A DNA stretch of 24,234 nucleotides from a virus. The notes under the pieces were generated by a model. It made no database searches and was not told the origin of the DNA. It saw nothing but the letters and a program-made list of their open reading frames with translations. Within the stretch, counting starts at the first letter, position 1; the number at the start of each line of letters is the position of its first letter. The translations under genes were made by a program, and so were the position numbers. Location of the stretch: positions 1 to 24,234 of the IMG/VR virus record IMGVR_UViG_3300035564_000053; one strand, given 5' to 3'. Shown here in pieces: positions 9,296-23,497 of the stretch.

Positions 9296-9820
9296 ATGTA
9301 CATCGACAGAAAAAAATATTATCGAATTTCACCACAACTTTATGGTGGATTAATAAACCTTCTTCTCACGCTCCCTCTATCCATGAAGAAGATGACGGCG
9401 GTAGAGATCGGGTCGTACATAGGGGAATCAGCAAACATTCTTTCCCTGTTTTTCAGCGATGTGATTTGCATTGATCCTATGCTAGACCCGAGCGTGCAGC
9501 AGATTTTTGAGTCAAACACCAGGGGTCGGAACATTGGGCTTATCCCGAAAACGTCCAGGGATGCACACGTTGATCTTTATTCTGGGTCATACGGCCTTGT
9601 CTACATTGACGGAATTCACACGCACCCTGAGGTCAAAGCCGACATCTCAAATTATTATCCGAAAGTGGCGCCCGAGTGCTATATCGGTGGACACGACTAT
9701 GGACCTGGACCAGAGAACGCGGGCGTGGTACAGGCGGTAAACGAAGCGTTCGGAGAACCGGACTTCACATTTTCTGATGAATCATGGCTTGTAAAAAAGA
9801 CACCGGGACGAATGAAATGA
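9296..9820 (+). CDS. Class I SAM-dependent methyltransferase (Methyltransf_24-like)
   Basis: 174 aa. Motif I is VEIGSYIGES (36-45), followed by an acidic motif II 'DVICIDPML', and later 'LVYIDGIHTHPEVKADI' and 'PECYIGGHDYGP', which match the small class I methyltransferases often found with glycosyltransferases (CmcI / Methyltransf_24-like). It would transfer a methyl group from S-adenosylmethionine, plausibly to a sugar added by the upstream enzymes. GGGAGGAG precedes ATG 9296; the preceding stop is adjacent (TAAATG) and the next gene overlaps as ATGA. An intact Rossmann core makes activity likely, but the substrate is inferred only from context. Confidence 0.83.
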   Translation: MYIDRKKYYRISPQLYGGLINLLLTLPLSMKKMTAVEIGSYIGESANILSLFFSDVICIDPMLDPSVQQIFESNTRGRNIGLIPKTSRDAHVDLYSGSYGLVYIDGIHTHPEVKADISNYYPKVAPECYIGGHDYGPGPENAGVVQAVNEAFGEPDFTFSDESWLVKKTPGRMK

Positions 9821-10047
9821 AGACAATCGACGCCACCGACACCATAGAACGCATGCTCAAGAAAGTGGTCGATGAAAACCGGCACACTGGATGCATCGAC
9901 GTCCATATTGAGTGCAATCAGGGAGGCGTTCGGGCGATGAAAGTGGCGGTGAGTTCCAAGATTGCTGCCGGAGAAATAAGGACATCTATCTTCGAATTTG
10001 GAGGCAGCAAACCCGATGTGGTTGAGCCGGTAGAACCAGGCTTTTAA
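9817..10047 (+). CDS. Small hypothetical protein, 76 aa, end of cargo cassette
   Basis: Start chosen at ATG 9817 because it overlaps the methyltransferase stop (ATGA). The product has an N-terminal helix (DTIERMLKKVVDENRHTG) and then a beta-rich part 'CIDVHIECNQGGVRAMKVAV', faintly like the small phage proteins of DUF2292 type, but I cannot assign it. The C-terminus is Pro/Val/Glu-rich. It is the last gene before the promoter and terminator at 10055-10200 and closes the packaging-plus-modification transcript. Confidence 0.68.
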   Translation: MKTIDATDTIERMLKKVVDENRHTGCIDVHIECNQGGVRAMKVAVSSKIAAGEIRTSIFEFGGSKPDVVEPVEPGF

Positions 10048-10054
10048 AAAAACC

Positions 10055-10083
10055 TTGCACCTAAATACATTTTGTGGTATATT
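10055..10083 (+). promoter_or_regulatory. Strong sigma70-type promoter
   Basis: TTGCAC (10055-10060), 17 nt, TATATT (10078-10083) lies 8 nt after the preceding stop. The predicted transcript starts near 10090. This is the best rightward promoter I find in the window and matches the architecture of the leftward promoter at 2247-2275. Confidence 0.68.
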
Positions 10084-10089
10084 AAGGTC

Positions 10090-10200
10090 TGAAGCAGTAC
10101 TTTATCTTGTGATGTAGGTTTCCGGATTCTTTTTCGCCACCCGAGAAAGGGTGACCCGAATAAGCCCGGTTCCAGCCAAAAGCTGGGATCGGGCTTTTTT
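10090..10200 (+). ncRNA. Candidate ~110-nt small RNA or attenuated leader
   Basis: Bounded by the promoter at 10055-10083 and the terminator at 10163-10200. Inside are a hairpin CACCC-GAGAAA-GGGTG (10138-10153) and flanking complementary pieces CCGGATTC (10122-10129) with GAAT (10158-10161) and CCGG (10166-10169). The last piece belongs to the terminator's 5' arm, so the upstream fold and the terminator cannot both form fully. That is the arrangement of an attenuator. No known riboswitch or hammerhead core was recognised. No open frame with a credible start lies within it. Confidence 0.45.
10163..10200 (+). terminator. Intrinsic terminator upstream of DUF2213 gene
   Basis: A 14-bp stem with two G-U pairs (arms 10163-10176 and 10182-10195, AGCCCGG... 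paired with ...CGGGCT), a CAAAA loop and a run of six T (10195-10200). This is a textbook rho-independent terminator. It lies only 29 nt before the next start codon, leaving no space for another promoter. Confidence 0.85.
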
Positions 10201-10229
10201 ATTGTCCACACTTCTCGAAAGTCAAGCAA

Positions 10230-11477
10230 ATGCCGAAAACGATAGCAGACGTCCAGCGGATCGACAAAGCCAGGATCGTCGGGGCCATTAAAAAGACCGA
10301 TGACGGCTATCTGCAAGGCACCGCGGTTGTGGCACGCTCGGGGATTTTGGAATACTTCGAAGGTGGCAAAACAGTCCGCGAGCTCGTGCGTCCTGAAACC
10401 CTTGCAAAAGCAGATTCACTTGATACGCTAAAAATGAAGCCCGTCACCAATGATCATCCCTCCGTCCGCCTTCTCACTCCACAGAACGTCAAAAACTTCC
10501 AAGTGGGAACAACAGGTGATAACGTCAAGGTGGATGATGGGCTTCTCTATTCCTCAGTCACCATTAACGATAGCGCAGCGATTCAGGCTGTTGAACGTGG
10601 CAAACGGGAACTGTCCTGCGGGTACACGTGCGACCTGCTTGAGCAGCCGGGTACCTGGACGACTGGCGAGAAGTATGACCGTGAACAAATTAACCGCAAG
10701 TATAACCATGTTGCGATATGTGACCTCGGGCGAGCCGGTTCCGTTGCGTCGCTTCACCTTGATGCGGCGGATGTTTACGAATGCGGGGAAGTAAAATTCA
10801 AAGACGATTCTTTAAAAACAGATATTAAACCTCTTCAAAGGAGCAGACCAATGCCCGTTCCCATAACCATCAACGGTATCACGTATAACGATCAGGCGCC
10901 GGAAGTGGCGAAGCATATCGAGACGCTGGTATCGGATCTCGCCAAGGCAAAGACGGATAGCGCCAATGCCATTGCCGCGATCCAGACCAAGCTCGATGCA
11001 GCGACCGCCGCCACAACCGCCGTCCAGACCAAGCTCGATGCCGCAAATGTGGAAATCGCTGCTCTTCCTGCGAAGATCATCGCGGCAGGGAAAACCCGCG
11101 CCGATCTCGTTGCACAGGCAAAACCGCACCTCGACAAAGCGGATACCGACAAGATCGACACGCTGAGCGACGCGCAGATCAAGCTTGCCGTGGCAAACAA
11201 GGCGTTCCCCGCGGCAAAGGACAAAATCGCCACGGTGAAAACGGACAACGCGGACGCGGTCGGCGTGTGGTACGAGGCGGCATTGACCGCGCTGAAGAAC
11301 GACAAGACGGATGCAGCAGCTGCAGCGAACCGCGTTGCTGCAAACGGTGCCGCGCATAACGACGGATCAGACAAAGGCGCGGAAGGTGACAAGAAACCGA
11401 AGACCAAAGAAGACGCGGAATCGGAAGTGTGCAACCGTTTCAAGAAAACATCGAACCGCGACGCGCTCATGAAGTAA
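10230..11477 (+). CDS. DUF2213 family: fused prohead protease and scaffold
   Basis: 415 aa. Residues ~1-200 match DUF2213: 'KMKPVTNDHPSVRLLTPQN' with H76, 'GKRELSCGYTCDL' with S129, and 'NHVAICDLGRAGSVASLHLD' with H160. These His/Ser residues are candidates for a serine protease site as in prohead proteases. Residues ~208-415 are Ala/Lys/Asp-rich helical coiled coil ending in a basic tail (KKTSNRDALMK), the character of a capsid scaffold. The ribosome site before ATG 10230 is weak (GAAAG), unlike the strong one before internal Met208. A 19-nt repeat (10981-10999 and 11023-11041) encodes two QTKLDAA units 14 codons apart. Position just before cement and capsid genes fits head maturation. Confidence 0.82.
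   Translation: MPKTIADVQRIDKARIVGAIKKTDDGYLQGTAVVARSGILEYFEGGKTVRELVRPETLAKADSLDTLKMKPVTNDHPSVRLLTPQNVKNFQVGTTGDNVKVDDGLLYSSVTINDSAAIQAVERGKRELSCGYTCDLLEQPGTWTTGEKYDREQINRKYNHVAICDLGRAGSVASLHLDAADVYECGEVKFKDDSLKTDIKPLQRSRPMPVPITINGITYNDQAPEVAKHIETLVSDLAKAKTDSANAIAAIQTKLDAATAATTAVQTKLDAANVEIAALPAKIIAAGKTRADLVAQAKPHLDKADTDKIDTLSDAQIKLAVANKAFPAAKDKIATVKTDNADAVGVWYEAALTALKNDKTDAAAAANRVAANGAAHNDGSDKGAEGDKKPKTKEDAESEVCNRFKKTSNRDALMK
10851..11477 (+). CDS. Nested scaffold protein from internal start (in frame with DUF2213 gene)
   Basis: In-frame ATG 10851 is preceded by AAAGGAG (10837-10843) with a 7-nt spacer, a much better ribosome site than that of the full-length gene. Initiation here gives a 208-aa product starting MPVPITINGITYND that contains exactly the helical scaffold half and its basic C-terminus, without the protease half. 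This mirrors lambda C/Nu3, where scaffold is translated from an internal start in the protease gene. Inferred from sequence only, but the boundary falls precisely at the domain junction. Confidence 0.68.
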   Translation: MPVPITINGITYNDQAPEVAKHIETLVSDLAKAKTDSANAIAAIQTKLDAATAATTAVQTKLDAANVEIAALPAKIIAAGKTRADLVAQAKPHLDKADTDKIDTLSDAQIKLAVANKAFPAAKDKIATVKTDNADAVGVWYEAALTALKNDKTDAAAAANRVAANGAAHNDGSDKGAEGDKKPKTKEDAESEVCNRFKKTSNRDALMK

Positions 11478-11536: not shown

Positions 11537-12358
11537 ATGAATATACCGCAGACCGCTTACAACCTGTACTTCACCAAGGCCATTCTTGGCATGCAGGCAA
11601 TCGCCACGGAAACGTGCGACAAATTCAGCAGAATCGCAAGCGGCATCGTGTACTACGGCCGCGCGCTCATTCAATCCCGCCTGTATGACGGCGTGTGCCG
11701 TCTGCCGCGGGCAAATAAATTCGTGGTGACCGTCTCAGGCGAAATGGCTGCGGGGAACATCGTTACCGCAATCACCCATGGCAAAGCGAAGAATGGCGAG
11801 GTGGACGCTTCGACTGCCATTACAACCATCACCACCGAATTCACCAGCACGCTTGCAGAGACTCTCGCCCAGCACGCAGCTGATATCGCCGCCGCGATGT
11901 CAGACTGCTATTCCTGTATAGCGGCAGGAGCGACAACGCTCACCTTTATCGGTGACTGCGATGACATCACAGCCGTCGCAACGTCCTTCACCAGTCCCGG
12001 CGAGTATGATACCGCGGCCGCCACAACCGCAATTTCGACGCAGGATGCAGTGAGCGATATCTGCGGCGTTTCGTATCTCGACCACGCCAGGCAGCAGCAA
12101 ATTTCCGGCGCCACCTATTACATGGACACAGAGCCCGTCAACATCATGCGGAAGGGCACAATCTGGGTTTACGGCGAAGAAGCGGTTGTTCCCGCATCGA
12201 CGGTGTATGCGCGCCTGCTCGTCAACACCGCAAATTATGCGGGCTATTTCGGCAAGAGCGCCGATTCGTCCAAATGCGTCGCGCTGGTCGGATCGAAGTA
12301 CCAGCAGTCAATCGTGACTGCCGATCTGGTTCCGTTGATAGTGAACCTCCCTCAGTAA
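11537..12358 (+). CDS. Structural cement/decoration protein (Gp24-like)
   Basis: 273 aa. It shares the pattern of phage cement proteins encoded next to DUF2184 capsids: N-terminal 'IASGIVYYGRALIQ', a Thr/Ala-rich central insertion (residues ~80-170), and the C-terminal 'NIMRKGTIWVYGEEAVVPAS' and 'VYARLLVNT' barrel motif. Such proteins sit on capsid local threefold axes and stabilise the shell. The central Ala/Thr-rich part (about 90 residues) could be a surface-exposed insertion. AAAGGGG precedes ATG 11537. It shares a 14-nt 5' leader word (AAACTCATAACCAT, 11505-11518) with the sheath gene (16290-16303). Confidence 0.72.
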   Translation: MNIPQTAYNLYFTKAILGMQAIATETCDKFSRIASGIVYYGRALIQSRLYDGVCRLPRANKFVVTVSGEMAAGNIVTAITHGKAKNGEVDASTAITTITTEFTSTLAETLAQHAADIAAAMSDCYSCIAAGATTLTFIGDCDDITAVATSFTSPGEYDTAAATTAISTQDAVSDICGVSYLDHARQQQISGATYYMDTEPVNIMRKGTIWVYGEEAVVPASTVYARLLVNTANYAGYFGKSADSSKCVALVGSKYQQSIVTADLVPLIVNLPQ

Positions 12359-12418
12359 CGGCAAAGCCTGGGAGTTGAAAAAGTCATAAGTAAACAACCT
12401 TTCAAAAGGAGAAACAGT

Positions 12419-13519
12419 ATGCCGAAAGTAATCAGGTTTGACGGAAAAGAGGGGACGGATTTCCTGGGCCACCTCGCAACGCGCCTTGATGACGTTGCAG
12501 TCTCCAGGGGATATCGGTTCGACACCGCCGGTCAGAGTCTCTCCGTGTGGTTTCAGCGTCAGCTGGAATACATCGAGAGCGACCTGAATTTTGTCGAGTA
12601 TGGCGAGCTTTCCTCGTGGAAGCACATACCCATCGAATCAAAAGGCGGCGACAACAAGTGGTACACCTGGCGCTTGTTCGACAAGGTCGGAAAATGGAAG
12701 ATCGGTGGGACCGACAGTGACGATATTCCCGAAGTCAACATCATGGGCGCCGAGCTGCCCGTACCGATCCGGCCGCTCACCGGCGGATTCAAGTACAACG
12801 TGCAGGAGCTCCTTGACGGCAAACAGGCTGCACAGAACAATCCGAACGCTCCCTCGATCATGGTCGAGCAGCAGAAGGCCACGGCTTGCATGGAAGCGTA
12901 TCAGCAGATCGTCGACCAGATTTGCTGGTTTGCCGACCCGTCCTCGCCGGTTTACGCTGGCCTTACCGGGATTTTCTACAACACATACATCCCGACAGTG
13001 TCGGCAGCGACCGGTACGTCATCGAGCAAGGTGACGTGGTTCAACGCTCTCGGCGTGCCGCAGAAAACCCCCGACGAAGTGCTGGTCGACCTCAACGCTC
13101 CGCTCACCGCAATCCGGGTGAACACGTTGAATCGCTATTCGGCTGACGCAGTGCTCATGCCGATCCAGCATTTCAACTATCTGGCCAACACCCGTATCCA
13201 GGACGTGACCGGAAAAACGATTCTCAAGTTCTGGCTTGAGACGCATCCGGAAATCACGACGCTGGATATCTGCGTACCGTGCCTTAATGTGCCCGCGGGT
13301 GGAAGCCTGGCAGTGGCAACCGACGTCATACTGTACTTCAAGAAGAGTGCCGACGTCGTGAAACTGGTTCTTCCTCGCCAGTTCACTATGCAGCCCATCC
13401 AGGAAGTCGGGTTCAACTACAAGATCCCGTGCTGGGCGACGACTGCCGGTGTCATCACCAAGCGGCCGAAGGCCATGGCGATGCTCATAGGAACGTCGAC
13501 CAACGCAGTAGGATCGTAG
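12419..13519 (+). CDS. Major capsid protein (DUF2184, HK97 fold)
   Basis: 366 aa. Recognisable DUF2184 features are 'FFVEYGEL'-type N-arm text (NFVEYGELSSWKHIPI), 'VNIMGAELPVPIRPLTGGFK', the 'VEQQKATACMEAYQQIVDQI' spine helix, 'DLNAPLTAIRVNT', 'AVLMPIQHFNYLANTRI' and the C-terminal 'PCWATTAGVITKRPKAM'. It is the main shell protein, assembled on the scaffold encoded just upstream. Strong ribosome site AAAAGGAG before ATG 12419. A stable hairpin follows the stop (13538-13563), common after highly expressed capsid genes. Length is normal for the family, with no clear N-terminal propeptide. Confidence 0.9.
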   Translation: MPKVIRFDGKEGTDFLGHLATRLDDVAVSRGYRFDTAGQSLSVWFQRQLEYIESDLNFVEYGELSSWKHIPIESKGGDNKWYTWRLFDKVGKWKIGGTDSDDIPEVNIMGAELPVPIRPLTGGFKYNVQELLDGKQAAQNNPNAPSIMVEQQKATACMEAYQQIVDQICWFADPSSPVYAGLTGIFYNTYIPTVSAATGTSSSKVTWFNALGVPQKTPDEVLVDLNAPLTAIRVNTLNRYSADAVLMPIQHFNYLANTRIQDVTGKTILKFWLETHPEITTLDICVPCLNVPAGGSLAVATDVILYFKKSADVVKLVLPRQFTMQPIQEVGFNYKIPCWATTAGVITKRPKAMAMLIGTSTNAVGS

Positions 13520-13537
13520 ACAAGCAGACAACATCAC

Positions 13538-13563
13538 GGCGGGGCGGCATCTGCTTCCCCGCC
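13538..13563 (+). other. GC-rich hairpin after capsid gene
   Basis: GGCGGGG (13538-13544) pairs perfectly with CCCCGCC (13557-13563) around a 12-nt loop, 18 nt after the capsid stop. No T run follows, so it is not a classic terminator. It may protect the capsid mRNA 3' end or partly lower downstream expression. Confidence 0.6.
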
Positions 13564-13596
13564 ATCTATCCAATCACTGTTTTACCGGAGGGTAAA

Positions 13597-14193
13597 ATGA
13601 TTCTTAATCGTAAAAGGCCGAATGACCACACGACGGCCGGGGTGACATTTCACCCGGGATCTCAATTCATCGCAGATGACTACTACCGGAAACATCTGAA
13701 GGGAAACAAGGATTTCCAGTCCCAGCTCGACGCGGGATTTATGGAAATAATGGTCCCGGCCGAAGAAAGTTTAACTGCGGAAAAAGAAGCTGCGGCTCTT
13801 TTATCAAAGGCGGAAAAAGCTCTGTCCGACAATGCAAAGGTTATTGCAGACGCAAAAACGCCTGATCAGACAAAGAAAGCCGCGCAGGATAAGGTCGCTG
13901 CGCTCCAGACGGATGTTGACAAGGCAAGAGAAAGCGCCAAGGATGCAGCAAACGGAAAACAGAAAACCTCTCTCGCCGAAACCATCGTGACGCTTCCGGA
14001 AATAAAAGCCATCACCATTATCAAGACGATCATCGATGGCGTGGAGCTCAAAGAAATATCGAAACTGGATAAGCGCCGCGAAGTTGTGGCGGCTGCCGAA
14101 GCACAAATTACCCTTCGGCAAGGCACCATGGACGGTATGGCCCCTGTTATTCCGAAGGCAACCGGCAACATTCCCATAGGGGATTTTGAATAA
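13597..14193 (+). CDS. Hypothetical coiled-coil head protein, 198 aa
   Basis: Start at ATG 13597 because GGAGGG lies 6 nt upstream; a longer frame back to 13429 runs through the capsid gene. No family is recognised. The N-terminal ~50 residues (TFHPGSQFIADDYYRKHLKGN) and C-terminal part (LRQGTMDGMAPVIPK) look folded, joined by a long Ala/Lys/Asp coiled coil at ~60-130. Location between capsid and DUF4054 connector suggests a head-completion or internal head role. The coiled coil resembles in style the scaffold upstream but shares no obvious repeat. Confidence 0.72.
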   Translation: MILNRKRPNDHTTAGVTFHPGSQFIADDYYRKHLKGNKDFQSQLDAGFMEIMVPAEESLTAEKEAAALLSKAEKALSDNAKVIADAKTPDQTKKAAQDKVAALQTDVDKARESAKDAANGKQKTSLAETIVTLPEIKAITIIKTIIDGVELKEISKLDKRREVVAAAEAQITLRQGTMDGMAPVIPKATGNIPIGDFE

Positions 14194-14583
14194 ATGTCAG
14201 TTTCAACCCTCATCTCTGCGATTGCCCCCGCGTATGCGTCCGACTCCCGCATTGCCATTTTTACAACGCTGGCAACGCAGCAAACCAGCCGGACGCATTT
14301 CGGACTGAATTACGAATATGCGGTGGCTCTCAGAGTTTGTCACATGATTTTTCGCGCACCGGCAAACGGCCCCGGAACACCAGGGGCCGTTACCAGCGCG
14401 GTCGAAGGTTCGGTTTCTCAGGCATATCAGATTTCTCCGGACCTTATGAAACGTTACGGCGATCTGTGCTGCTCCCCTTACGGCTGCATGCTGGCGAGCT
14501 TGATTGATGGGCATATTGTGGGACAGTTCGCAGTTGGAGGAGGGGCCGGATCACTGGCGACACAGCAAGGAAACAACATCTGA
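14194..14583 (+). CDS. DUF4054-type head-tail connector
   Basis: 129 aa. It shows the layout of DUF4054 adaptor proteins: 'VSTLISAIAPAYASDSRIAIF' at the N-terminus, 'YEYAVALRVCHMIFRAP', then the diagnostic 'AVEGSVSQAYQIS' and 'KRYGDLCCSPYGCMLASLI'. These are the first-ring connectors attached beneath the portal. A Gly-rich C-terminal end (GGGAGSLATQQ) is likely flexible. The start is TAAATG-adjacent to the preceding gene and the end overlaps the next as TGATG, placing it in the continuous head-to-neck operon. Confidence 0.78.
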   Translation: MSVSTLISAIAPAYASDSRIAIFTTLATQQTSRTHFGLNYEYAVALRVCHMIFRAPANGPGTPGAVTSAVEGSVSQAYQISPDLMKRYGDLCCSPYGCMLASLIDGHIVGQFAVGGGAGSLATQQGNNI

Positions 14584-15149
14584 TGCTTCGCCCAACCGTG
14601 GCAATAGAGGAAAAATCAAACGCGTTCGACGCGATGCGCGCAGACCTGAAACTGTTATCTGACGCATTCGTAAAAGTCGGTTTTCCTGAAGGCGCGAAGC
14701 CGGGAAAACCTAAAAATATTCTGGTTGATGCGAAGCCGTATGAGGACATGAGCGAAGTGGCGAGAATTGCAACGTGGAACGAATTCGGTGTCGCAAAAAC
14801 ACAGATTGAAACGATGCGCGGAATCATGACGGGCCGGTCTGCATCGAACTGGAAACTGCCGCCGCGAAATTTTTTCCGTTCCGCGGTCGACGGCAGCAAT
14901 GAGCAGTTGAAAAATGTTAAAGAGCGGCTGTATCAGCAGTTCCTGCTCGGCCGCCTGACCGCGGTTCAGGTCCTCGACAGCCTTGGTTTGTGGATGCAGG
15001 CAAAAATACGGAATTCAATTATCCACGGCAACTGGACGCCGAACGCACCGAGCACGATAAAGCAAAAAGGATCTTCGAAGCCGCTGATCGATTCGTCGCA
15101 GATGCTTAACTCTGTGACCTGGGTAAACAGTTTGTCGAAGGCGAAATAA
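14583..15149 (+). CDS. Putative neck/tail-completion protein (HK97 gp10- or Mu gpG-like)
   Basis: 188 aa. The features 'VKVGFPEGAKPG', 'VARIATWNEFGVAKTQ', 'LPPRNFFRSAVDGS' and C-terminal 'NAPSTIKQKGSSKPLIDSSQ' are shared by phage proteins that complete the tail or neck and contain the 'EFG...PPRPFFR...SKPLIDTGxMxxS' pattern. Position among the connector genes agrees. One-base overlaps on both sides (TGATG, TAATG). The exact ring position in the neck cannot be deduced. Confidence 0.7.
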   Translation: MLRPTVAIEEKSNAFDAMRADLKLLSDAFVKVGFPEGAKPGKPKNILVDAKPYEDMSEVARIATWNEFGVAKTQIETMRGIMTGRSASNWKLPPRNFFRSAVDGSNEQLKNVKERLYQQFLLGRLTAVQVLDSLGLWMQAKIRNSIIHGNWTPNAPSTIKQKGSSKPLIDSSQMLNSVTWVNSLSKAK

Positions 15150-15496
15150 TGCTTTTTTTCAACAGGAAAACTCTTTCGTGTAAACGCTTCGCAGAGGGAG
15201 CGCTTGATCATGGGGTGTATACGAAAGGAGCTGAAACGGCGTTCACGATCAAGGGCAGCGTGCAGGCGATCACTCCGGCTGAGCTTGCGCTGCTCGATGA
15301 AGGAAAAAGAACGAAGCAAAACAGCGTGATCATAACAGAGGACGTTCTTGCCCTGGCCACACAATCGACAAAGGCTGACTGGGTGGAGATCGAAGGCGAA
15401 CAGTACGAAGTGTCAGCAAAATCAAATTGGGACAATGGCGTTTTACCGAATAACCGTTATGTCGTGACGAAAATAGAAAACGCGCAGGATTATTAA
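15149..15496 (+). CDS. Putative head-closure / head-tail joining protein
   Basis: 115 aa, beta-rich. It reads 'TIKGSVQAITPAELALLDEGKRTKQNSVIITEDVLALA', then 'WVEIEGEQYEVSAKSNWDNG', the usual pattern of small head-closure (stopper) proteins that seal the connector and bind the tail. Gene order connector, completion protein, closure protein, terminator is standard. Overlaps the neck terminator start as TAATG. There is no cysteine-rich or enzymatic motif. Assigned from pattern and order. Confidence 0.66.
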   Translation: MLFFNRKTLSCKRFAEGALDHGVYTKGAETAFTIKGSVQAITPAELALLDEGKRTKQNSVIITEDVLALATQSTKADWVEIEGEQYEVSAKSNWDNGVLPNNRYVVTKIENAQDY

Positions 15497-16299
15497 TGTC
15501 CTCTCCTGTTATAACCGTTCAACCTGCAAGCACCCGAGTGAAAATCGGCGAGGCGCTTGCGCTGTCACTTACGGCGACAGGAACGGGAACGCTTACCTAT
15601 CAATGGCAGAAGGACGGTGTTGACCTCACCGGGCAGACAGCGCACTCCCTGACCATTCTCAACTTTGATTACGCGAACGAAGGTGTTTATTCATGCATTG
15701 TTACCAATGGCGACGGAAGCACGACCAGCGACGACGCCACGGTCAAATCAATGCCTGGCCAGCTGGATGAAACGTATCTGCAGCGCAAGCTGTACGACTG
15801 GATAAGCACGATGCTCACGCTGACGAGCAATCCGGATACACGCGCAGCTGGTTCAGTGGCGATGATATGGCACATGCAAGACCTTCCCCGCTTCGCCACC
15901 CCGATCCTTATGGGACGGATTTCGGCTATTGAAAAGATCGGCCGGGATGCCGTTTTTCATCCTGATAACAACGGCAGCAAACGCCAGGCTGGTATCCGTG
16001 AATTCATGCTGTACCTACAGTATTTCGGGGCAGGCGCGATAACCGCTTTACAGAAAATCGCCGACGCTGTTGAAGACCTGGCTGCTATTGCCACGCTGCA
16101 GGAGGACGGCATTTCTCCCGTATGGGCGACACCGGTCCTGGATGCGCACCAGTTTGTCGGGACCGAACCGGAAGACAGGGCCATTCTCGATATCAGGTTC
16201 AGAACGACGAGCGAGTGGAATACCGTTATTGACGTTATCGAATCGGCAGAAGCTACCGGCGAAATAAATGAAACTGACGAAGTAATCATAAACTCATAA
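15496..16299 (+). CDS. Neck terminator protein with N-terminal Ig-like domain
   Basis: 267 aa. Residues ~4-84 form an immunoglobulin-like domain: 'VKIGEALALSLTATGTGTLT' then 'YQWQKDGVDLTGQ' (W37) and 'EGVYSCIVTNGDGST' (Y65, C67). The B-strand cysteine is absent, so no canonical disulfide forms. Residues ~91-267 match the phage neck terminator family: 'DETYLQRKLYDWISTML', 'MGRISAIEKIGRDAVFHP', 'REFMLYLQYFGAGAITALQ' and 'ILDIRFRTTSEWNTVIDVIE'. The terminator ring caps the tail and docks on the head. Ig-like domains on virions are known to display on the surface and may bind glycans or cells. Here it decorates the neck, a less usual place. Codon use is like the neighbours. Confidence 0.83.
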   Translation: MSSPVITVQPASTRVKIGEALALSLTATGTGTLTYQWQKDGVDLTGQTAHSLTILNFDYANEGVYSCIVTNGDGSTTSDDATVKSMPGQLDETYLQRKLYDWISTMLTLTSNPDTRAAGSVAMIWHMQDLPRFATPILMGRISAIEKIGRDAVFHPDNNGSKRQAGIREFMLYLQYFGAGAITALQKIADAVEDLAAIATLQEDGISPVWATPVLDAHQFVGTEPEDRAILDIRFRTTSEWNTVIDVIESAEATGEINETDEVIINS

Positions 16300-16314
16300 C
16301 CATGGAGGTTGCTC

Positions 16315-17406
16315 ATGGCCGGACAATATGACAAGATGATAAAAATTTCCATCACGGAAGCAGCATCTGGCATTTCCGTTGTGGGATTCGGAACGGTGCT
16401 GATCCTGACCCCCGATGCAACATTCGGCGCCAGGACAAAGTCGTATTCCGCGGCAGACGCCGCGCTTGCCGCTGATCTGACAGGAGGATCGAACTCCAAC
16501 GCGTACATAGCAGCCCAAGCAGTTTTCATGCAGAGCCCGGCGCCGACCACCCTCAAGATCGGTCGTGTCGCAGCATACGAAGACCTGGACGACGCCATCG
16601 ACGCGATCAGGATCGAGGACGACGACTGGTATATTGTCATCGCCACGGACAGGGACCCGAACGACATCGAGCCTCTCGCCGCAAAAATCGAGAGCCTGAC
16701 CAAACTGCTCATTTACGCATCAAACGATGCGGATATCCTGGACCCGAACAGCACGACGGACATTGCCTATATCCTCAACGATCTGGGCTACAACAGGACG
16801 GCGGGGATTTATAAAGCGGACTCAACCACGGAAAGAGCGGATGCCGCCCTTGCCGGGTATCTGGGCGGCCAGGACAAGCCCGGATCGTACACAACGTGCT
16901 ACAAGAAGCTCATCGGCCAGGCCACGGATACGCTCACCAGCGCCGAGGAAGACGCTGTTCTGGGCGATCCGCAGTCCGACGACCAGGGCAAGTGCTGCAA
17001 TACCTATCAGTCCGTGGGCGGCGCCGGCAGGTTGCGCTACGGTGTTGTGGCAAGCGGGAAATTCATCGACTACGTCATTTTCAAAGACTGGCTCAAAGCC
17101 CGCCTCCAGGAAGCCATTTTCGCGCTGTTCACCAGCGCTCCCAAGGTTCCGGGCGATATCAACGGCGCAGCAATGATCCAGAACGCCATGGAGCCCGTTT
17201 TCAAGCTCGGGCAGGCAAACAACGCCATCACGCAATTCTCACAGGACGAAGACAAGAAACAGAACGGCGGGTATTACATCACCCTGCCCGACATGTCGCT
17301 GCGGTCGACGGCAGATAAAACGACGCGTCACCTGTCCGGGATCACCTTCGGGTGCTGGTATACGGACGGCATTCACACGGTGGAAATAAGCGGCGTGATT
17401 CTGTAG
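16315..17406 (+). CDS. Contractile tail sheath protein (DUF3383)
   Basis: 363 aa from ATG 16315, with GGAGG (16304-16308) 6 nt upstream. DUF3383 features include the early 'ISVVGFGTVLILTP' and 'RTKSYSAADAALAAD', then 'ALAGYLGGQDKPGSYTTCYK', the C-terminal 'ALFTSAPKVPGDINGAAMIQ', and 'YYITLPDMSLRSTADKTTR' followed by 'ISGVIL'. The sheath polymer contracts to drive the tube through the host envelope, which makes this a myovirus. It is compact for a sheath, close to the small Pam3-like type. Its leader contains the 14-nt word also found before the cement gene. Confidence 0.88.
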   Translation: MAGQYDKMIKISITEAASGISVVGFGTVLILTPDATFGARTKSYSAADAALAADLTGGSNSNAYIAAQAVFMQSPAPTTLKIGRVAAYEDLDDAIDAIRIEDDDWYIVIATDRDPNDIEPLAAKIESLTKLLIYASNDADILDPNSTTDIAYILNDLGYNRTAGIYKADSTTERADAALAGYLGGQDKPGSYTTCYKKLIGQATDTLTSAEEDAVLGDPQSDDQGKCCNTYQSVGGAGRLRYGVVASGKFIDYVIFKDWLKARLQEAIFALFTSAPKVPGDINGAAMIQNAMEPVFKLGQANNAITQFSQDEDKKQNGGYYITLPDMSLRSTADKTTRHLSGITFGCWYTDGIHTVEISGVIL

Positions 17407-17412
17407 TTGACT

Positions 17413-17428
17413 TGTTCCACGTGAAACC
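17413..17428. promoter_or_regulatory. parS-like palindrome (ParB/Spo0J site)
   Basis: TGTTCCACGTGAAACC matches the chromosomal ParB consensus TGTTNCACGTGAAACA at every specified position except the last (14 of 15). It lies in the 53-nt gap between the sheath stop and the tube ribosome site. With 46 allowed words of 4^15 and 24 kb scanned, about 0.001 such sites are expected by chance under even base use. No ParA or ParB gene is visible in the window. Whether host ParB binds is unknown. Confidence 0.68.
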
Positions 17429-17459
17429 TTTGCCAAGAAACCTTAACAGGAGATAAATC

Positions 17460-17891
17460 ATGGGAGCAACAAAGACTTTTGACCCGAAACGCTGGGGACT
17501 CATCGTCGCCGGTGTTCCCGTGGTCGGCCTTGCGTCTGACAACATGATCGACGCGAAACGGTCAGAGGACTCGTACACGAAATACGTCGGCGTCCTCGGT
17601 GAAGTTACGCGGTCGCGGCAGTACAACAAGAGCGGGGAGATCACCTTCCGGCTCATGCAGTCCTCGCCGCTCAACGATGTTTTTTCGGGACTTCGGCAGC
17701 TCGACGAGCAATCGAACGCAGGCGTTGTGCCGGTCATGCTGAAAGATTTTAACAGCACGACCTCCATCACCTGCTCCGAAGCCTGGATTCGCAAGAATCC
17801 CGACTACGGTCTCGGTAAAGACATGAAGGAAGCCGAGTGGACGTTTGACTGCGCCGATCTCGACGAGTTCTTTGGCGGGTCGATAACTTGA
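17460..17891 (+). CDS. Tail tube protein (DUF3277)
   Basis: 143 aa. It begins 'TFDPKRWGLIVAGVPVVGLA' and includes 'DNMIDAKRSEDSYTKYVGVL', 'EITFRLMQSSPLND', 'VPVMLKDFNSTTSITCSEAW' and 'EAEWTFDCADLDEFFGG', the classic pattern of DUF3277 myoviral tube proteins. Stacked hexamers form the inner tube around the tape measure. AGGAGA lies 6 nt before ATG 17460. It is directly preceded by the sheath gene, as is standard, but is separated from the chaperone gene by the inserted HNH endonuclease. Confidence 0.88.
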   Translation: MGATKTFDPKRWGLIVAGVPVVGLASDNMIDAKRSEDSYTKYVGVLGEVTRSRQYNKSGEITFRLMQSSPLNDVFSGLRQLDEQSNAGVVPVMLKDFNSTTSITCSEAWIRKNPDYGLGKDMKEAEWTFDCADLDEFFGGSIT

Positions 17892-17929
17892 TCGCAAGCA
17901 GGGATAGGGTGGCCGCCCGATAAAGAAGT

Positions 17930-17979
17930 CTCCAGCTTCCTTCCCTTTTTAAAAAATCTGGAGTTTTATAATCCTGGAG
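17930..17979 (+). promoter_or_regulatory. Inverted repeats that could mask the HNH ribosome site or terminate
   Basis: CTCCAG (17930-17935) can pair with CTGGAG at 17958-17963, followed by TTTTAT, or with a second CTGGAG at 17974-17979, which is part of the HNH gene's ribosome site. A T5A6 self-complementary run (17946-17956) lies inside. The two pairings exclude each other. This could reduce late read-through or endonuclease translation; the stems are short. Confidence 0.35.
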
Positions 17980-17984
17980 GTTAT

Positions 17985-18455
17985 ATGGGTTCATTTGGTA
18001 GCGGAAGAAAAGAAATACGATTTGTCGTTAATGAAAAAGGTTGTCAATTAAATGTTAGCCACTGTAGAGATAAAAACGGCTACCCGAAAATTTATCGTAA
18101 CGGCAAATACTATCGAATGTCGCACTGGACTTATGAACTTAGGTACGGCAAATCGTTTCCAGATGGGAAATTTGCCTGTCACCATTGCGACGAACCGGCT
18201 TGCCAATCATGGGAAAACGGGCATTTGTATGTCGGAACGGCTTTAGAAAATGCTCAAGAAATGGTAAGGCACGGGAGATGGAGAGGAAATGCTCCAAAAG
18301 GAGAAAACCACTTTCGATCCAAGCTCACCGATGAAAATGTGTTTGAGATCAGAACCGCATTGGGGACACTTAAGGAGATTGGCAAAAAGTTCGGAATAAG
18401 CGGTGTACAAGTATTAAGAATTAAACAACACAAATATTGGAAACATGTAGCATAG
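17985..18455 (+). CDS. HNH homing-type endonuclease
   Basis: 156 aa. The HNH core is 'CHHCDEPACQSWENGHLYVG' (65-84) followed by 'TALENAQEMVRHGR': histidines H66/H67 and H80, N89, and structural cysteines C65, C68 and C73. A C-terminal helix-turn-helix (TLKEIGKKFGISGVQVLRIK, 128-147) would recognise DNA. Such freestanding enzymes nick or cut intronless relatives and spread themselves during mixed infection. Foreign character is clear: 20 G/C in 60 at 18001-18060 against 35 in 60 within the tube gene (17641-17700). It interrupts the usual tube-chaperone order. Strong ribosome site TGGAGG. No intron boundaries are visible, so it is a freestanding insertion. Confidence 0.9.
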   Translation: MGSFGSGRKEIRFVVNEKGCQLNVSHCRDKNGYPKIYRNGKYYRMSHWTYELRYGKSFPDGKFACHHCDEPACQSWENGHLYVGTALENAQEMVRHGRWRGNAPKGENHFRSKLTDENVFEIRTALGTLKEIGKKFGISGVQVLRIKQHKYWKHVA

Positions 18456-18496
18456 TTCTTCTTTATAATCAACCTAAAGAAACGGAGTATTTCTTA

Positions 18497-19006
18497 ATGG
18501 CTGACCCCAAAACCAAAACAATCGACGGACACAGCGTCTACGTCATGCCGTTATTCGGCGAGACGGCGACGCTGGTGTTTTATCAGCTGCAGAAGTGTCT
18601 CGCGCCGGCATTCATCCAGGCGATAGGCGCGCTCAAAGGGATTTTCTCAGAACAGGGCAGCGAAAAATCAGGAATCAACATCGCACAATTCTTGAACGCC
18701 GAGGCAGACATTGATTTCGCCAGGCTGTCGGAAGCGGTCGACGCGATTCATGCAAAGATGAACGCACGCGAATGGCTTGATTTCCTGAAGCAGACGCTGT
18801 CGCAGACGACGGTCGACAACAAGCCGGTTGGCGAAACCCAGCATTATAACGACGTATTCTCCGGGAAAATGCTGCTGCTTTACAAGGTGCTGTGGTATAC
18901 GCTGGAGATAAATTTTTCTGATTTTTTCGGCGTGGTCGGCTCTGGCGTTATGAGGACAGGCGCAACGACGAGTCCGACCGGATCAACGCAAAAGCAAGCG
19001 AACTGA
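18497..19006 (+). CDS. Tail assembly chaperone, short (unshifted) form
   Basis: 169 aa from ATG 18497; CGGAG lies upstream, within the loop of a small AT hairpin (18477-18495). The product begins MADPKTKTIDGHSVYVMPLF and contains 'ETATLVFYQLQKCLAPAFIQ' and 'EADIDFARLSEAVDAIHAKM', consistent with the gp41-like chaperones encoded between tube and tape measure. Past the slippery site at 18922-18928 the unshifted frame adds only a Gly/Thr/Ser/Gln-rich tail before TGA 19004-19006. Tail chaperones coat the tape measure during tail assembly, and short and long forms are both needed in lambda-like systems. Confidence 0.82.
   Translation: MADPKTKTIDGHSVYVMPLFGETATLVFYQLQKCLAPAFIQAIGALKGIFSEQGSEKSGINIAQFLNAEADIDFARLSEAVDAIHAKMNAREWLDFLKQTLSQTTVDNKPVGETQHYNDVFSGKMLLLYKVLWYTLEINFSDFFGVVGSGVMRTGATTSPTGSTQKQAN
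18922..18928 (+). promoter_or_regulatory. -1 ribosomal frameshift slippery site TTTTTTC
   Basis: In the frame of the chaperone gene the heptamer reads T-TTT-TTC, the X-XXY-YYZ form. Slipping back by one base after TTC 18926-18928 continues at CGG 18928 in an open frame that ends at TAA 19201-19203, directly overlapping the tape measure start. This is exactly the arrangement of tail chaperone frameshifts. Confidence 0.82.
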
Positions 19007-19203
19007 TCGCCTGCCTGGATGAAACGGTAAAGGCGAAGCTCCCATTCTGGCGACTGGTGACCGAGGGAATCGCAACCCGCAAAGAGCTCAATGAAAGTTA
19101 CACGTTTATGGACATGATGGAAGCGAGCGCGGTTCTGGATATGAAAAGCGCGGTTGATGCCGCGATAGGTGAAATTACAATGCCGAAGATGCCGGAGAAA
19201 TAA
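18922..19203 (+). CDS. Tail assembly chaperone, -1 frame extension (GT-type)
   Basis: This frame has no ribosome site of its own and is reached by -1 frameshift at 18922-18928. It adds 91 residues, giving a fused product of 235 aa. The extension reads 'LWRYEDRRNDESDRINAKAS', 'PFWRLVTEGIATRKELNESY', 'MDMMEASAVLDMKSAVDAAI', an acidic, helical sequence typical of chaperone T domains. It ends TAATG into the tape measure gene. Without the shift this 200-nt stretch would be the only untranslated part of the tail operon, which supports the model. Known in lambda G/GT and many myoviruses; the frequency here is unknown. Confidence 0.8.
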   Translation, partial: FFRRGRLWRYEDRRNDESDRINAKASELIACLDETVKAKLPFWRLVTEGIATRKELNESYTFMDMMEASAVLDMKSAVDAAIGEITMPKMPEK

Positions 19204-20840
19204 TGACCATTCGTGAATTAATAACAAAGATCGGTTTCACAGTCGACGAGCGTGGCCTGGAAGTCTACGACAAGGCCATCGGTCGCGTATACGACAAGGC
19301 GGACGGTTTATATAAAAATCTGAACCGAGCCGCCGACGGCATTATGCACATCGGCCAGAAGATGTCCATGTATATCTCTGCACCCCTTGCCGCCCTGGCG
19401 ACTGTCTCCGTCATGGCAAAGGTCAAGCTTGAGGACCTGCAGAACGAATGGGGCACGATGCTCAATTCTCAGGAAAAGGGAATCGTCTTCACTAAAGAAA
19501 TGATGGATCTCGACGAAAAATCCCCCTACAACACCGAGCAGATTTCCGCATACGCCAAAGAGCTACATGGCATGGGTGTTCAAACCGATAAGATACTGCC
19601 GAAAATGAAGCTGTTTATGGATATCTCTGCAGGCAGCGGCCTTCCCCTTGAATTCCTCCTTCAGACGGTCCAGATGATCGACAATATCGGGTTTGCAACC
19701 GGTCGCCAGCTGCGCCGCCTTATCATGTCCGGGGCAATCGACAGAAAAGAACTCGGGAAAATGCTGGGCCTTGATCTTTCGAGTGGTGCTGGCATGAAGC
19801 GCATGATGGCGCTCGCTGACCGCGGCAAAGTCACCTCGGGTATGATTGAAAGCATATTCCAGCGCGAAGGCGGACCTGGCGGAAAATATTTCGGGAAAGC
19901 GGAAGAACGGTCGCACACCCTGAAAAAAGGATTCGATAACCTCTGGCACTCGATATTCATGCTGCGCGCGGGGATCGGCGACATGCTTACGAAATCAGTT
20001 GGGCTTTCGAACATCCTGCAAAAACTTGCTGATTGGGTGAATAAGCTCACCGACCGAATTAACAAATTGAGTCCCGGGTGGAAAACATTTCTTGTTGTCA
20101 CCGGCGGCATTGCTTTTGCGATAGGTCCCGCGCTCATCGGCATTGGTAAGCTGCTTAATTTATTCATCGGTCTTAACTCAGCGATGCTTTTCCTCAGGGC
20201 AGCCGGGTTCGCGCAGGGTGCGGGCGGGATTCTCGGAATGTTTAAGGGGCTCGGCGCCGGACTCGGAAAAGTCCTTGTGACTGTGGGCCCGGTCATTGCG
20301 ATGCTGACCATCGTATACTTCCTCATCCAAGACATTTACATGTACGTCAAATACGGGAAAGACGCCTCGCTTTTTGGCGACATGTCGAAGGTATGGGGAA
20401 AACCGTTCGACGACGCAATAAACAACATCGTCATGTTCTTTTTTGATGCCTGGCAGGCTGTGCGAGATTGGTGGGACGATCTGTGGGCGGACCCGTGGAA
20501 GACCATGCGCGACACGCTGCTCCCCGACTGGCTGAAAAGCTTTTTATTTCATCAGGACAAAAACGTGTTCGGCAAGGGAGCGACAAAAGAGTCGGATATG
20601 GCGCAGCAGTATCAAAACTGGCTCACGAGCATGGGCGGGACACCCGCGCAGCTTGCCGGAGCTCCTTCGTCCGCGCTTTCGGCAGGGAAACAGGTCACGC
20701 AGATAAATGTCAACGTGACAACGCCGGTGGTCGCTGGAGCATCCGAAGCAGACAAGACCGCGATAAGCACGCACGCAAAATCAGTCCATCACGAAGTTGC
20801 AAAGAAGATAATAGACTCAATTTACAACCAGTACAAATAA
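19203..20840 (+). CDS. Tail tape measure protein
   Basis: 545 aa. The N-terminus 'ELITKIGFTVDERGLEVYDK' is the typical start of myoviral tape measures. There follow 'MHIGQKMSMYISAPLAALAT', an ATQISxY-like 'SPYNTEQISAYAKELHGMGV', and two hydrophobic segments (residues ~297-325 and ~352-378) that may insert into the host membrane. The C-terminal part has 'QINVNVTTPVV'. Tape measure length sets tail length; at about 0.15 nm per residue this implies a tail of around 80 nm (inference). No lysozyme or peptidase domain is apparent. Overlaps the chaperone extension as TAATG. Confidence 0.88.
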   Translation: MTIRELITKIGFTVDERGLEVYDKAIGRVYDKADGLYKNLNRAADGIMHIGQKMSMYISAPLAALATVSVMAKVKLEDLQNEWGTMLNSQEKGIVFTKEMMDLDEKSPYNTEQISAYAKELHGMGVQTDKILPKMKLFMDISAGSGLPLEFLLQTVQMIDNIGFATGRQLRRLIMSGAIDRKELGKMLGLDLSSGAGMKRMMALADRGKVTSGMIESIFQREGGPGGKYFGKAEERSHTLKKGFDNLWHSIFMLRAGIGDMLTKSVGLSNILQKLADWVNKLTDRINKLSPGWKTFLVVTGGIAFAIGPALIGIGKLLNLFIGLNSAMLFLRAAGFAQGAGGILGMFKGLGAGLGKVLVTVGPVIAMLTIVYFLIQDIYMYVKYGKDASLFGDMSKVWGKPFDDAINNIVMFFFDAWQAVRDWWDDLWADPWKTMRDTLLPDWLKSFLFHQDKNVFGKGATKESDMAQQYQNWLTSMGGTPAQLAGAPSSALSAGKQVTQINVNVTTPVVAGASEADKTAISTHAKSVHHEVAKKIIDSIYNQYK

Positions 20841-20841
20841 T

Positions 20842-21546
20842 ATGGTCGACATCCTTTTAGGCAGAAAAAAAGATCCCCCCTCTATAAAAGAGACAGGCAG
20901 CAGCGCAGTCCTTCTGCAGCTGGATGCCTGTCTCAGCCAATCGCATAAGTACCAGAACAAGGTGACATCGTATCCTGTCGAAACCGGACTCGACATCGCC
21001 GACCACATCAGGCAGGAACCTGAGCAAATCACCATCGAAGGAATTGTTACAAATTCCCCGGTGTCGTTTTTCCCGCTGCTCACTGATTTTAAAACAGTCG
21101 TGAATGGCGGGAAAGACAGGGTGATGACGGCATACGAAACGCTGCTGCTTGTCGCCGGTAGGAAACTCGTAAAGGTTCCCGATTTGAAGGGCGAGAAGAT
21201 CAATACTACCATAGAGACAAAACCGAAATTAATTGATATTTCGGCAAATTTGCGAGTGTTTAACGACATGGTGATCGAGGACCTTGACTTCGATTTCGAC
21301 AATAAAACCGGTGATTCGTTACCATTCAAGGCGACGGCGAAGCGGATTCGCAAGGCGACGACACAGCAGTCGACAATCAATTACACAAGCGGCAGCCTGT
21401 ATGGATCTGGCGGGACCCCGGACCAGACCGATACGGCCGACAAGGGCCAGCAGCAAACGAAGCCCGAACAGCACATGTCCGGTTTGAAGGCGCTCTCGAG
21501 CGGCGAAGGAATGACAGGACTATTAAGCCACGCATTCGATTGGTAA
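20842..21546 (+). CDS. Dit-like baseplate protein
   Basis: 234 aa. Residues ~25-130 resemble the Dit-like N-terminal domain: 'SQSHKYQNKVTSYPVETGLD' then 'IADHIRQEPEQITIEGIVTN', 'TAYETLLLVAGRKLVKVPDL' and 'INTTIETKPKLIDISANLRV'. In myoviruses this protein sits at the top of the baseplate around the tube. The C-terminal ~60 residues are Gly/Ser/Thr/Gln-rich and probably flexible. The start lies one base after the tape measure stop, with no clear ribosome site, so translation is probably coupled. Product assignment rests on the VETGxxIADHIRxxP pattern. Confidence 0.76.
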   Translation: MVDILLGRKKDPPSIKETGSSAVLLQLDACLSQSHKYQNKVTSYPVETGLDIADHIRQEPEQITIEGIVTNSPVSFFPLLTDFKTVVNGGKDRVMTAYETLLLVAGRKLVKVPDLKGEKINTTIETKPKLIDISANLRVFNDMVIEDLDFDFDNKTGDSLPFKATAKRIRKATTQQSTINYTSGSLYGSGGTPDQTDTADKGQQQTKPEQHMSGLKALSSGEGMTGLLSHAFDW

Positions 21547-21549
21547 AGT

Positions 21550-21876
21550 ATGCCGGTAATAATACCTCTTTTTGAAAACGCGAACTTCTCTGAAGCGGTC
21601 ACGCTTGACAACGTTAATTATATACTGTCGTTCAAATGGAATACTCGTGGTGAATTCTGGACAATGGACATTTATGACGGTAACGGCGAGATCATCGCGT
21701 ATGGGTTTAAACTGGTGATCTGGTATCCGTTGACCGTGCAGCACAACAACGTTAATCTCCCTGCAGGGACCTTTGTCCTTGTCGATCCGAGTGCCGCGAC
21801 GCAGTACGATGAAACTGGTCGAAACGATTTTGTTTCCGGACGCAAACTCGAACTTCTCTATGTGAGCGCGCTGTGA
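21550..21876 (+). CDS. Baseplate plug protein (Pam3 gp18-like)
   Basis: 108 aa, beta-rich. It resembles the cyanophage Pam3 gp18 plug domain: 'FSEAVTLDNVNYILSFKWNT' followed by 'RGEFWTMDIYDGNGEIIAYG', and a loop 'PAGTFVLVDPSAATQYDETG'. The plug occupies the hub interior of small contractile baseplates. It begins 3 nt after the previous stop and ends in a GTGA overlap with the hub gene. Length and position between Dit-like and hub genes agree with Pam3-type gene order. Confidence 0.75.
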   Translation: MPVIIPLFENANFSEAVTLDNVNYILSFKWNTRGEFWTMDIYDGNGEIIAYGFKLVIWYPLTVQHNNVNLPAGTFVLVDPSAATQYDETGRNDFVSGRKLELLYVSAL

Positions 21877-22781
21877 ACCAGAACTATTTCAACAGAATTT
21901 ACTCTCTGGAAATCGGGTACCCCTTGCGACCTGACCAGGCTAAAAAGATATCTGGTCTGCGGCTTACGTTCGATATCACAAAAACGGAAACGCCGGAGAG
22001 CAACGCCGCAACCATCACGATAAACAATCTTTCCGACGCGACCAGGTCTTTCATTAAAGAGCGTTCTTCTTTGGACTCCAGCGATGGAATGACAGTGACG
22101 CTGCGGGCTAGCTATGAGGAGCTCGAGGGGAGAGACGAGCTGCCGATTCTCTTCACCGGCGATATCATGGGTGTTTCGCATGACGTGACGAAACCGGAAA
22201 TCGTAACGCGCCTGCTCTGTCACGATGGCCTTGTCTCCATAAAGAAATCAAAGTTCGGAAAATCGTACAAGGCAGGCGTTCACGTTTTCCAGATAATAAA
22301 CGACATTGTGTCGTCGCTCGGGATTCCGCTGCAGGCGAAAGTCGAATCGCTCGGTATCACCGATTACATTTACAACCACGGATATACTTTCAGCGGGAAA
22401 ACATCGGATGCGCTGAGTCGGGTTTGCAATGGGTACGGTCTTCGCTGGTCGTGCCAGAACAACACGATCAAACTTTACCGCGCATGGAATACGGATGGGA
22501 CACCAGGGCATGACAACAAAGCATCGGCAAAAGGCGTCATTATCGGAAGCCCGCGGCGAATCGCAAAAACGATGTCCGGAGTTGAGACGACCGATTTCCG
22601 GGGCTGGGAGTTCGATGCGCTGCTTCTTCCGCAGGCCGAACCAGGCGGGACCGTGCAGATAAGCTCCACGCAGATCCCCGGGTCGCCGGTAAAGCTGCAG
22701 GTCGCCGAAGTGCATCATGCCGGAGACACGCATGGCGACGACTGGAAATCGACGATCAAGGCAAGGGAAACAGGAAAATGA
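21873..22781 (+). CDS. Baseplate hub protein (gp27/XkdQ-like)
   Basis: 302 aa using GTG 21873, which overlaps the plug stop as GTGA; the next Met would truncate conserved text. Pattern of hub proteins: 'GLRLTFDITKTETPESNAAT' and 'ITINNLSDATRSFIK', 'LPILFTGDIMGVSHDVTKPE', 'FQIINDIVSSLGIPL', 'GKTSDALSRVCNGYGLRWSC', and a C-terminal 'SPVKLQVAEVHHAGDTHGDD'. The trimeric hub joins tube and spike. The last segment matches the common hub ending in which the H-x-G-D-T-H-G-D loop contacts the spike. ATGA overlap with the spike gene. Confidence 0.82.
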   Translation: MNQNYFNRIYSLEIGYPLRPDQAKKISGLRLTFDITKTETPESNAATITINNLSDATRSFIKERSSLDSSDGMTVTLRASYEELEGRDELPILFTGDIMGVSHDVTKPEIVTRLLCHDGLVSIKKSKFGKSYKAGVHVFQIINDIVSSLGIPLQAKVESLGITDYIYNHGYTFSGKTSDALSRVCNGYGLRWSCQNNTIKLYRAWNTDGTPGHDNKASAKGVIIGSPRRIAKTMSGVETTDFRGWEFDALLLPQAEPGGTVQISSTQIPGSPVKLQVAEVHHAGDTHGDDWKSTIKARETGK

Positions 22782-23497
22782 ACGGTATCAATGAACGTGA
22801 CGTAGGGCAGGCGATAAACGCGCTCATCCTGAATGTGCTCTCCCGCGAGATGCACACGGCGATGCCCGGGCGCGTTGAGTCTGTTCAGGGGTCGAACCCC
22901 CGCACCGTCAATGTGAAGCCGCTCTTGAAATATGCAACGGTGGACGGGAAACAAACTGAATTCGACATTATCAACGGCGTGATGCTGTTGACGTATGGAT
23001 CGACAATATCATCGGTGACCATGCCCGTGCAAAAGGGTGACCTGGTCCTTTTAATTTTCTGCGAACGGTCTACCGAGAAATGGGCCCGCGCAACCGGAGT
23101 GTCCGATTCCGAGCTCGGCCGCCAGTTTGATTTATCCGACGCGTTTGCTATTCCGTTCAACTTCGCGGCGCTCGAGAGCGGATACAACAACGAAGACATG
23201 ATCGTAAAGCACCAAAACTCAAAGATCACCATGAAGCATGGACTCACCGGCGACACGGTTGAAATAGCGAATTCAACCTCGCCTACTGGCGCAAAGGCCA
23301 CGCTGCTGCCGTCCGGAAACGTTGCAATCGAAACGGCGCCGCTCGGCCTCATTACCTTGAACGGAAAAGCGATTGCTGATGGCGGTACGCTGACGCCGCT
23401 CGATGGCGTGGTGACCGGCATGTGTTCGTGTTCCATCACCGGGGCCCCGCATCCTGTCGTCTCTCTTACGGTGCTTGCAAAAGGATTGGTACCATGA
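22778..23497 (+). CDS. Central spike protein (Gp138 N-terminal domain)
   Basis: 239 aa. The N-terminal 'REMHTAMPGRVESVQGSNPR' and 'TVNVKPLLKYATVDG', then 'SVTMPVQKGDLVLLIFCERS' and 'DLSDAFAIPFNFAA' match the Gp138 OB-fold domain of membrane-piercing spikes. A beta-rich C-terminal part follows (KITMKHGLTGDTVEIANSTS and LITLNGKAIADGGTLTPLDG), likely the trimeric spike shaft. The tip region carries MCSCSITGAPHP; Cys/His there could bind metal as in other spikes, although no HxH motif is visible. ATGA overlaps on both sides. Confidence 0.84.
   Translation: MNGINERDVGQAINALILNVLSREMHTAMPGRVESVQGSNPRTVNVKPLLKYATVDGKQTEFDIINGVMLLTYGSTISSVTMPVQKGDLVLLIFCERSTEKWARATGVSDSELGRQFDLSDAFAIPFNFAALESGYNNEDMIVKHQNSKITMKHGLTGDTVEIANSTSPTGAKATLLPSGNVAIETAPLGLITLNGKAIADGGTLTPLDGVVTGMCSCSITGAPHPVVSLTVLAKGLVP

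Follow-up and report, generated by a model that had tools for sequence, protein, structure and literature searches.

A probable transcription attenuator with two competing, covarying RNA folds ahead of the capsid-to-baseplate genes of a myovirus clade

The region preceding the head-protease gene of a 24.2-kb IMG/VR virus record (the window, of 24,234 nucleotides) probably acts as a transcription attenuator, off by default, for the capsid-to-baseplate operon. Comparison with related phages establishes, at the level of sequence, the arrangement of promoter, leader and terminator, the two mutually exclusive folds of the leader and their conservation; promoter firing, termination by default and regulated switching are what we infer from them.

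Gene layout and the promoter-terminator unit

The 5' part of the window encodes, on the + strand, terminase (phrog_1482, phrog_2), portal (phrog_146) and a Mu F-like head gene, which are followed on the same strand by three glycosyltransferase-like genes, a methyltransferase and a small protein without a known family. The leader element lies between this small protein and a co-directional block that opens with a DUF2213-type head maturation protease (10230..11477, + strand; phrog_530, E 1.4e-74) and continues with capsid, neck, tail sheath, tape measure and baseplate genes (11537..23497, + strand; PHROG matches), including the major head protein and the baseplate hub. The genes of 11537..23497 would form a single operon with the DUF2213 gene and depend on read-through. 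At 7163-9820, three adjoining glycosyltransferase (DXD) matches, the third of which is slightly under the Pfam cut-off, and the methyltransferase are inserted among the head genes, and these genes possibly serve virion or DNA modification. A tail-region protein at 20842-21546 has matches to a tail fibre family as well as to a family of endolysins. No DNA similarity of the window to known phages was found, and a search for the head protease in GTDB genomes yields no match.

The predicted promoter consists of the -35 hexamer TTGCAC (10055..10060, + strand) and the -10 hexamer TATATT (10078..10083, + strand), with a predicted start site at approximately 10090. The motif TTGNNN-17-TAWATT is present in all six phages compared here, with a spacer of exactly 17 nt; the -35 reads TTGNNN in each of them, and the -10 reads TATATT in five and TAAATT in the sixth. 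Over both strands of the six phage records, TTG-17-TAWATT occurs 17 times in 255 kb. A consensus scan of the window lists 28 promoter-like sites vs 22 +/- 4.3 in shuffles, and the promoter at 10055-10083 is missing from this list because its -35 is too weak.

Terminator scan, folding and covariation identify a putative intrinsic terminator at 10162..10200 (+ strand), in which a stem (10162-10176/10182-10196) encloses the 5-nt loop CAAAA and leads into a T6 run (10195-10200). With 15 pairs and -27.3 kcal/mol, it ranks first by GC pairs in the terminator list of the window, which holds 25 terminator-like sites vs 24.8 in shuffles. An intrinsic terminator is predicted from sequence between the promoter and the first gene in 6/6 phages, with hairpins of -20 to -31 kcal/mol, each followed by a T-run. 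The terminated leader RNA would span 10090..10200 (+ strand, approximately 111 nt), as deduced from the promoter and terminator positions, and the corresponding RNAs of the relatives are predicted to be 86-136 nt long. RNA of 10085-10230 folds better than its shuffles (z -2.95), an excess that probably comes mainly from the terminator.

The preliminary description of this DNA had placed TTGCAC-17-TATATT upstream of a start near 10090, which agrees with the sequence and the start predicted here, and a 14-bp, T6 terminator at 10163-10200; the terminator and its T6 run stand, and the stem is 15 bp long, beginning at 10162. Its distance of 29 nt from the terminator to the DUF2213 start is also correct (ATG at 10230), as is its view that this leaves no space for a further promoter, the gap being only 12-29 nt in all six phages. 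Because the T-run lies so close to the ATG in every case, the capsid genes would require read-through, unless a promoter overlaps the terminator. No ORF common to the six leaders is seen when they are read by eye; ribosome-mediated (leader peptide) attenuation was rejected, the leaders having no conserved ORF.

The two folds and their conservation in related phages

Folding of growing transcripts, together with double changes over five phages, points to an antiterminator at 10122..10169 (+ strand) with four stems. P1 (10122-10125/10166-10169) is followed by a 3-nt bulge, P2 (10129-10131/10162-10164) and P3 (10133-10136/10157-10160) come next, and a 1x3 internal loop separates P3 from P4 (10138-10142/10149-10153). 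The first three stems, CCGG/CCGG, CTT/AAG and TTCG/CGAA, surround a CACCC/GGGTG hairpin, and the fold alone has a predicted energy of -19.4 kcal/mol. The terminator 5' arm overlaps P2' and P1', which makes the two folds mutually exclusive. An upstream fold of this kind, occupying the terminator 5' arm around a CACCC/GGGTG hairpin, had been anticipated in the preliminary description and is located here at 10122-10169.

In the window, L002, L003 and L012, the antiterminator is predicted as a common intermediate that forms immediately before the terminator 3' arm is synthesised, comprising 4 bp, a bulge of 2-3 nt, 3-4 bp, either a mismatch or a bulge, another 3-4 bp, an internal loop of 1x3 and a capped hairpin. 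The pairing fits L094 by alignment, where the predicted fold is weak (-9.3 kcal/mol), and L095 retains the outer stems CCGG-ATT-CTT/AAG-C-CCGG around a longer, different interior. Once its 3' arm is present, the terminator is predicted to outcompete the antiterminator, being stronger by about 6-17 kcal/mol.

The evidence from the window on its own is modest, comprising a good terminator, a plausible but weak promoter and an unremarkable alternative fold. Promoter and fold are unremarkable there owing to the weak -35 and to shuffled leaders that pair about as well: the real leader has little advantage over shuffled ones in pairing with a free terminator 5' arm (p for dG 0.05-0.52), and this single-sequence test of leader-to-arm pairing is non-significant in most phages. 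A loose shape descriptor is matched by chance approximately once per 2 kb, falling to once per 52 kb when a T-run is required as well (26 in 1.36 Mb), so that the shape in one genome alone is weak evidence. At the gathering cut-off, no Rfam family matches in the window, and at a relaxed threshold the best sub-threshold match at 10040-10260 has only E 0.25.

Relatives were sought with the head protease, the major head protein and the product of the gene lying between those two (the scaffold position), which reveals a sparse myovirus clade (L002, L003, L012, L094, L095 and L010/L090) whose scaffold-position proteins are 53-83% identical. A search with six sequences of the scaffold-position protein finds no further contigs. 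All six-phage counts refer to the window, L002, L003, L012, L094 and L095; L010/L090 was left out, as its contig begins within the second gene and is without the leader region. A promoter, a leader and a strong terminator that ends 12-29 nt before the head-protease ATG are present in 6/6 members, whereas 0/53 more distant DUF2213 loci carry a terminator of this kind in the upstream 250 nt. It is this comparison, together with covariation in both predicted folds, that provides support beyond chance. The leader sequences have mostly diverged, that of L012 nearly entirely, and a pattern search for the leader sequence recovers the close relatives and one unrelated match, which was judged to be due to chance.

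A search for covariation of the two competing stems in related phages, as the preliminary description had proposed, finds it in both. In the five phages aligned, 12/17 antiterminator pairs and 10/17 terminator pairs are doubly changed, and 92.6% and 98.7% of the cells, respectively, are paired, counts that lean towards the structure since the alignment was fitted to it by hand with N at gaps. None of the shuffles attains the observed pairing (0/500 for the antiterminator and 0/500 for the terminator), and sliding the partner by one column lowers the pairing to <=57% and <=65%, respectively. In L012, the P1 5' strand, the terminator 5' arm and the terminator 3' arm (alignment columns 3-4, 46-47 and 74-75) are swapped from GG/CC/GG to CC/GG/CC, and both folds survive; within the alignment, this three-strand compensation is the strongest single item of evidence. 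A structure model built from four phages, without L095 and L012, recovers L095 with E 1.1e-4 in 428 kb, and the identical alignment without structure misses it even when matches with E up to 10 are admitted. The model that excludes L012, which is the most informative sequence, does not recover it.

Proposed attenuation and alternative explanations

The covariation in both folds and the lack of room for a promoter in the relatives support attenuation ahead of the capsid/tail block. In the proposed mechanism, a sigma-70-type promoter would start the RNA near 10090, and the nascent 10122-10169 segment would fold first as the antiterminator, whose 3' strand is the terminator 5' arm. On emergence of the terminator 3' arm (10182-10196), the antiterminator would give way to the stronger terminator, and transcription would halt at approximately 10200 to give an RNA of roughly 110 nt. 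Read-through into the capsid genes would require the antiterminator to persist, most probably by means of a trans-acting factor late in infection. No unpaired nucleotides of the antiterminator are conserved, its internal and apical loops varying among the phages, in contrast to most sites at which ligands or proteins bind. This speaks against a conventional aptamer and would be compatible with a protein that reads shape, a factor acting on the polymerase, or the lack of any regulator.

The last of these would correspond to a fixed partial terminator, in which the folds set a constant, regulator-free ratio of read-through into the capsid operon. The absence of aptamer-like conserved nucleotides fits such a device, as does an antiterminator about 6-17 kcal/mol weaker than the terminator; however, a fixed ratio needs just a tuned terminator, and a conserved extra fold with three-strand compensation exceeds that need. 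This explanation is considered quite unlikely.

Alternatively, control may resemble that of lambda pR'-tR', with a Q-like protein loaded at the promoter making the polymerase resistant to termination; the alternative fold would then be no more than a folding intermediate. The order of elements agrees with the lambda pR'-6S RNA-tR' region, where a promoter, a short leader (of approximately 100 nt in the order compared) and a terminator precede the late morphogenesis genes, and Q and AlpA are loaded at an element embedded in the promoter, after which the polymerase passes downstream terminators (PMC6606751, PMC9371919). In contrast to the lambda system, the phage leader has a conserved antiterminator fold, the conservation of whose pairs Q-type control would leave unexplained, and it is located between the packaging/modification genes and the capsid genes. 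Additionally, comparison by eye finds no sequence common to the six -35/-10 spacers that could correspond to a conserved promoter element, and the scanned window proteins include no Q-like gene, which could lie elsewhere because the record is a fragment. Control of this type is regarded as unlikely.

The unit may also be read as a stand-alone small RNA gene, with the 86-136-nt RNA as its regulatory or structural product and read-through as leaky background. It forms a full promoter-to-terminator unit with conserved structure and no conserved ORF, and in L003 (IMGVR_UViG_3300036885_000129) a 32-nt repeat, GTCGCGCCTTTCGTAGGCGCGTGGATTGAAAC, at 1166-1197 between the promoter and the antiterminator matches the solitary-repeat arrangement of RNA anti-CRISPR candidates (PMC10651486). 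Against this reading, which we consider very improbable, no unpaired sequence is conserved for pairing with a target, the antiterminator excludes the terminator, so that a stable terminated RNA cannot hold P1/P2, and the position is always 12-29 nt before the same head-protease gene. The L003 repeat is a full type I-C-like repeat, 81% identical to that beside the Nitratidesulfovibrio vulgaris type I-C cas operon; it is present in a single copy on the 16-kb record, with no second copy, and is unique in IMG/VR by exact match. Solitary and located behind a promoter, it is a candidate RNA anti-CRISPR (Racr); neither the window nor any of the four remaining relatives has it.

Terminator/antiterminator leaders as such are well known (review PMC3369936). 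The proposed attenuator resembles the RAT elements of BglG/SacY/LicT in having, just ahead of the first gene, an antiterminator stem that contains internal loops and overlaps the terminator 5' arm; it differs in that conserved unpaired RAT nucleotides are absent, no BglG-type protein was found, the leader precedes capsid genes and no Rfam match is obtained. HK022 put RNA is likewise a structured phage leader near a promoter that potentially prevents termination; put comprises two stem-loops in ~70 nt, binds to RNA polymerase and affects terminators that are 10 kb or more distant (PMC9378689), whereas the fold of this clade directly excludes the adjacent terminator.

A candidate regulator and the biological meaning of the element

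The small protein at 9817..10047 (+ strand; 76 aa from this ATG, in an ORF that opens at 9784) sits at the end of the modification block in all six phages. Its counterparts in the other records, recovered by a profile search that finds it in every record, are L002:4673-4876, L109:155-349, L105:4161-4373 (- strand), L108:4273-4527 (- strand) and L094:4087-4278. No Pfam family matches it, and the idea of a DUF2292/YezD kind of protein was dropped for want of such a match; its structure model, a helix with three strands, has pLDDT 75, and comparison with PDB folds gives nothing with E below 0.36. By position only, it is the best candidate for a regulator that stabilises the antiterminator, an assignment that is tentative. 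The fuller scenario, a clade-specific phage system in which a small phage protein encoded where the packaging/modification block ends would attach to the nascent leader, keep the antiterminator in place and turn on the capsid-to-baseplate operon, is doubtful.

In three relatives, further genes, some of them on the opposite strand, separate the small protein from the element: L003 has an HNH-type endonuclease there, L012 has unknown genes, and L095 has an Imm5-like protein with small unknown ORFs. With such genes intervening upstream, capsid mRNA would most obviously come from the promoter of the element itself. Of the attenuator first proposed between the modification block and the capsid block, the place ahead of the capsid/tail genes is supported by the covariation and the lack of promoter room; the element goes with the capsid block and not with the modification block, given the intervening genes in three relatives. 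The interval from the small protein to the element is a spot of cargo insertion (L109:346-1092, L105:2694-4183, L108:2914-4070).

The classical means of turning on phage late genes are activators, new sigma factors and Q-type modifiers of the polymerase. The open literature searched yielded no account of a covarying attenuator ahead of a phage capsid operon, which does not prove that none exists. A conserved terminator/antiterminator leader before the capsid operon would constitute an RNA-fold timing switch for virion assembly, as well as a structured RNA family outside Rfam, and the element offers one candidate regulator to test, together with concrete mutations that break and restore P1/P2. 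If the small protein does hold the antiterminator, the late switch of these phages would operate through alternative RNA folds rather than through a Q-type polymerase modifier.
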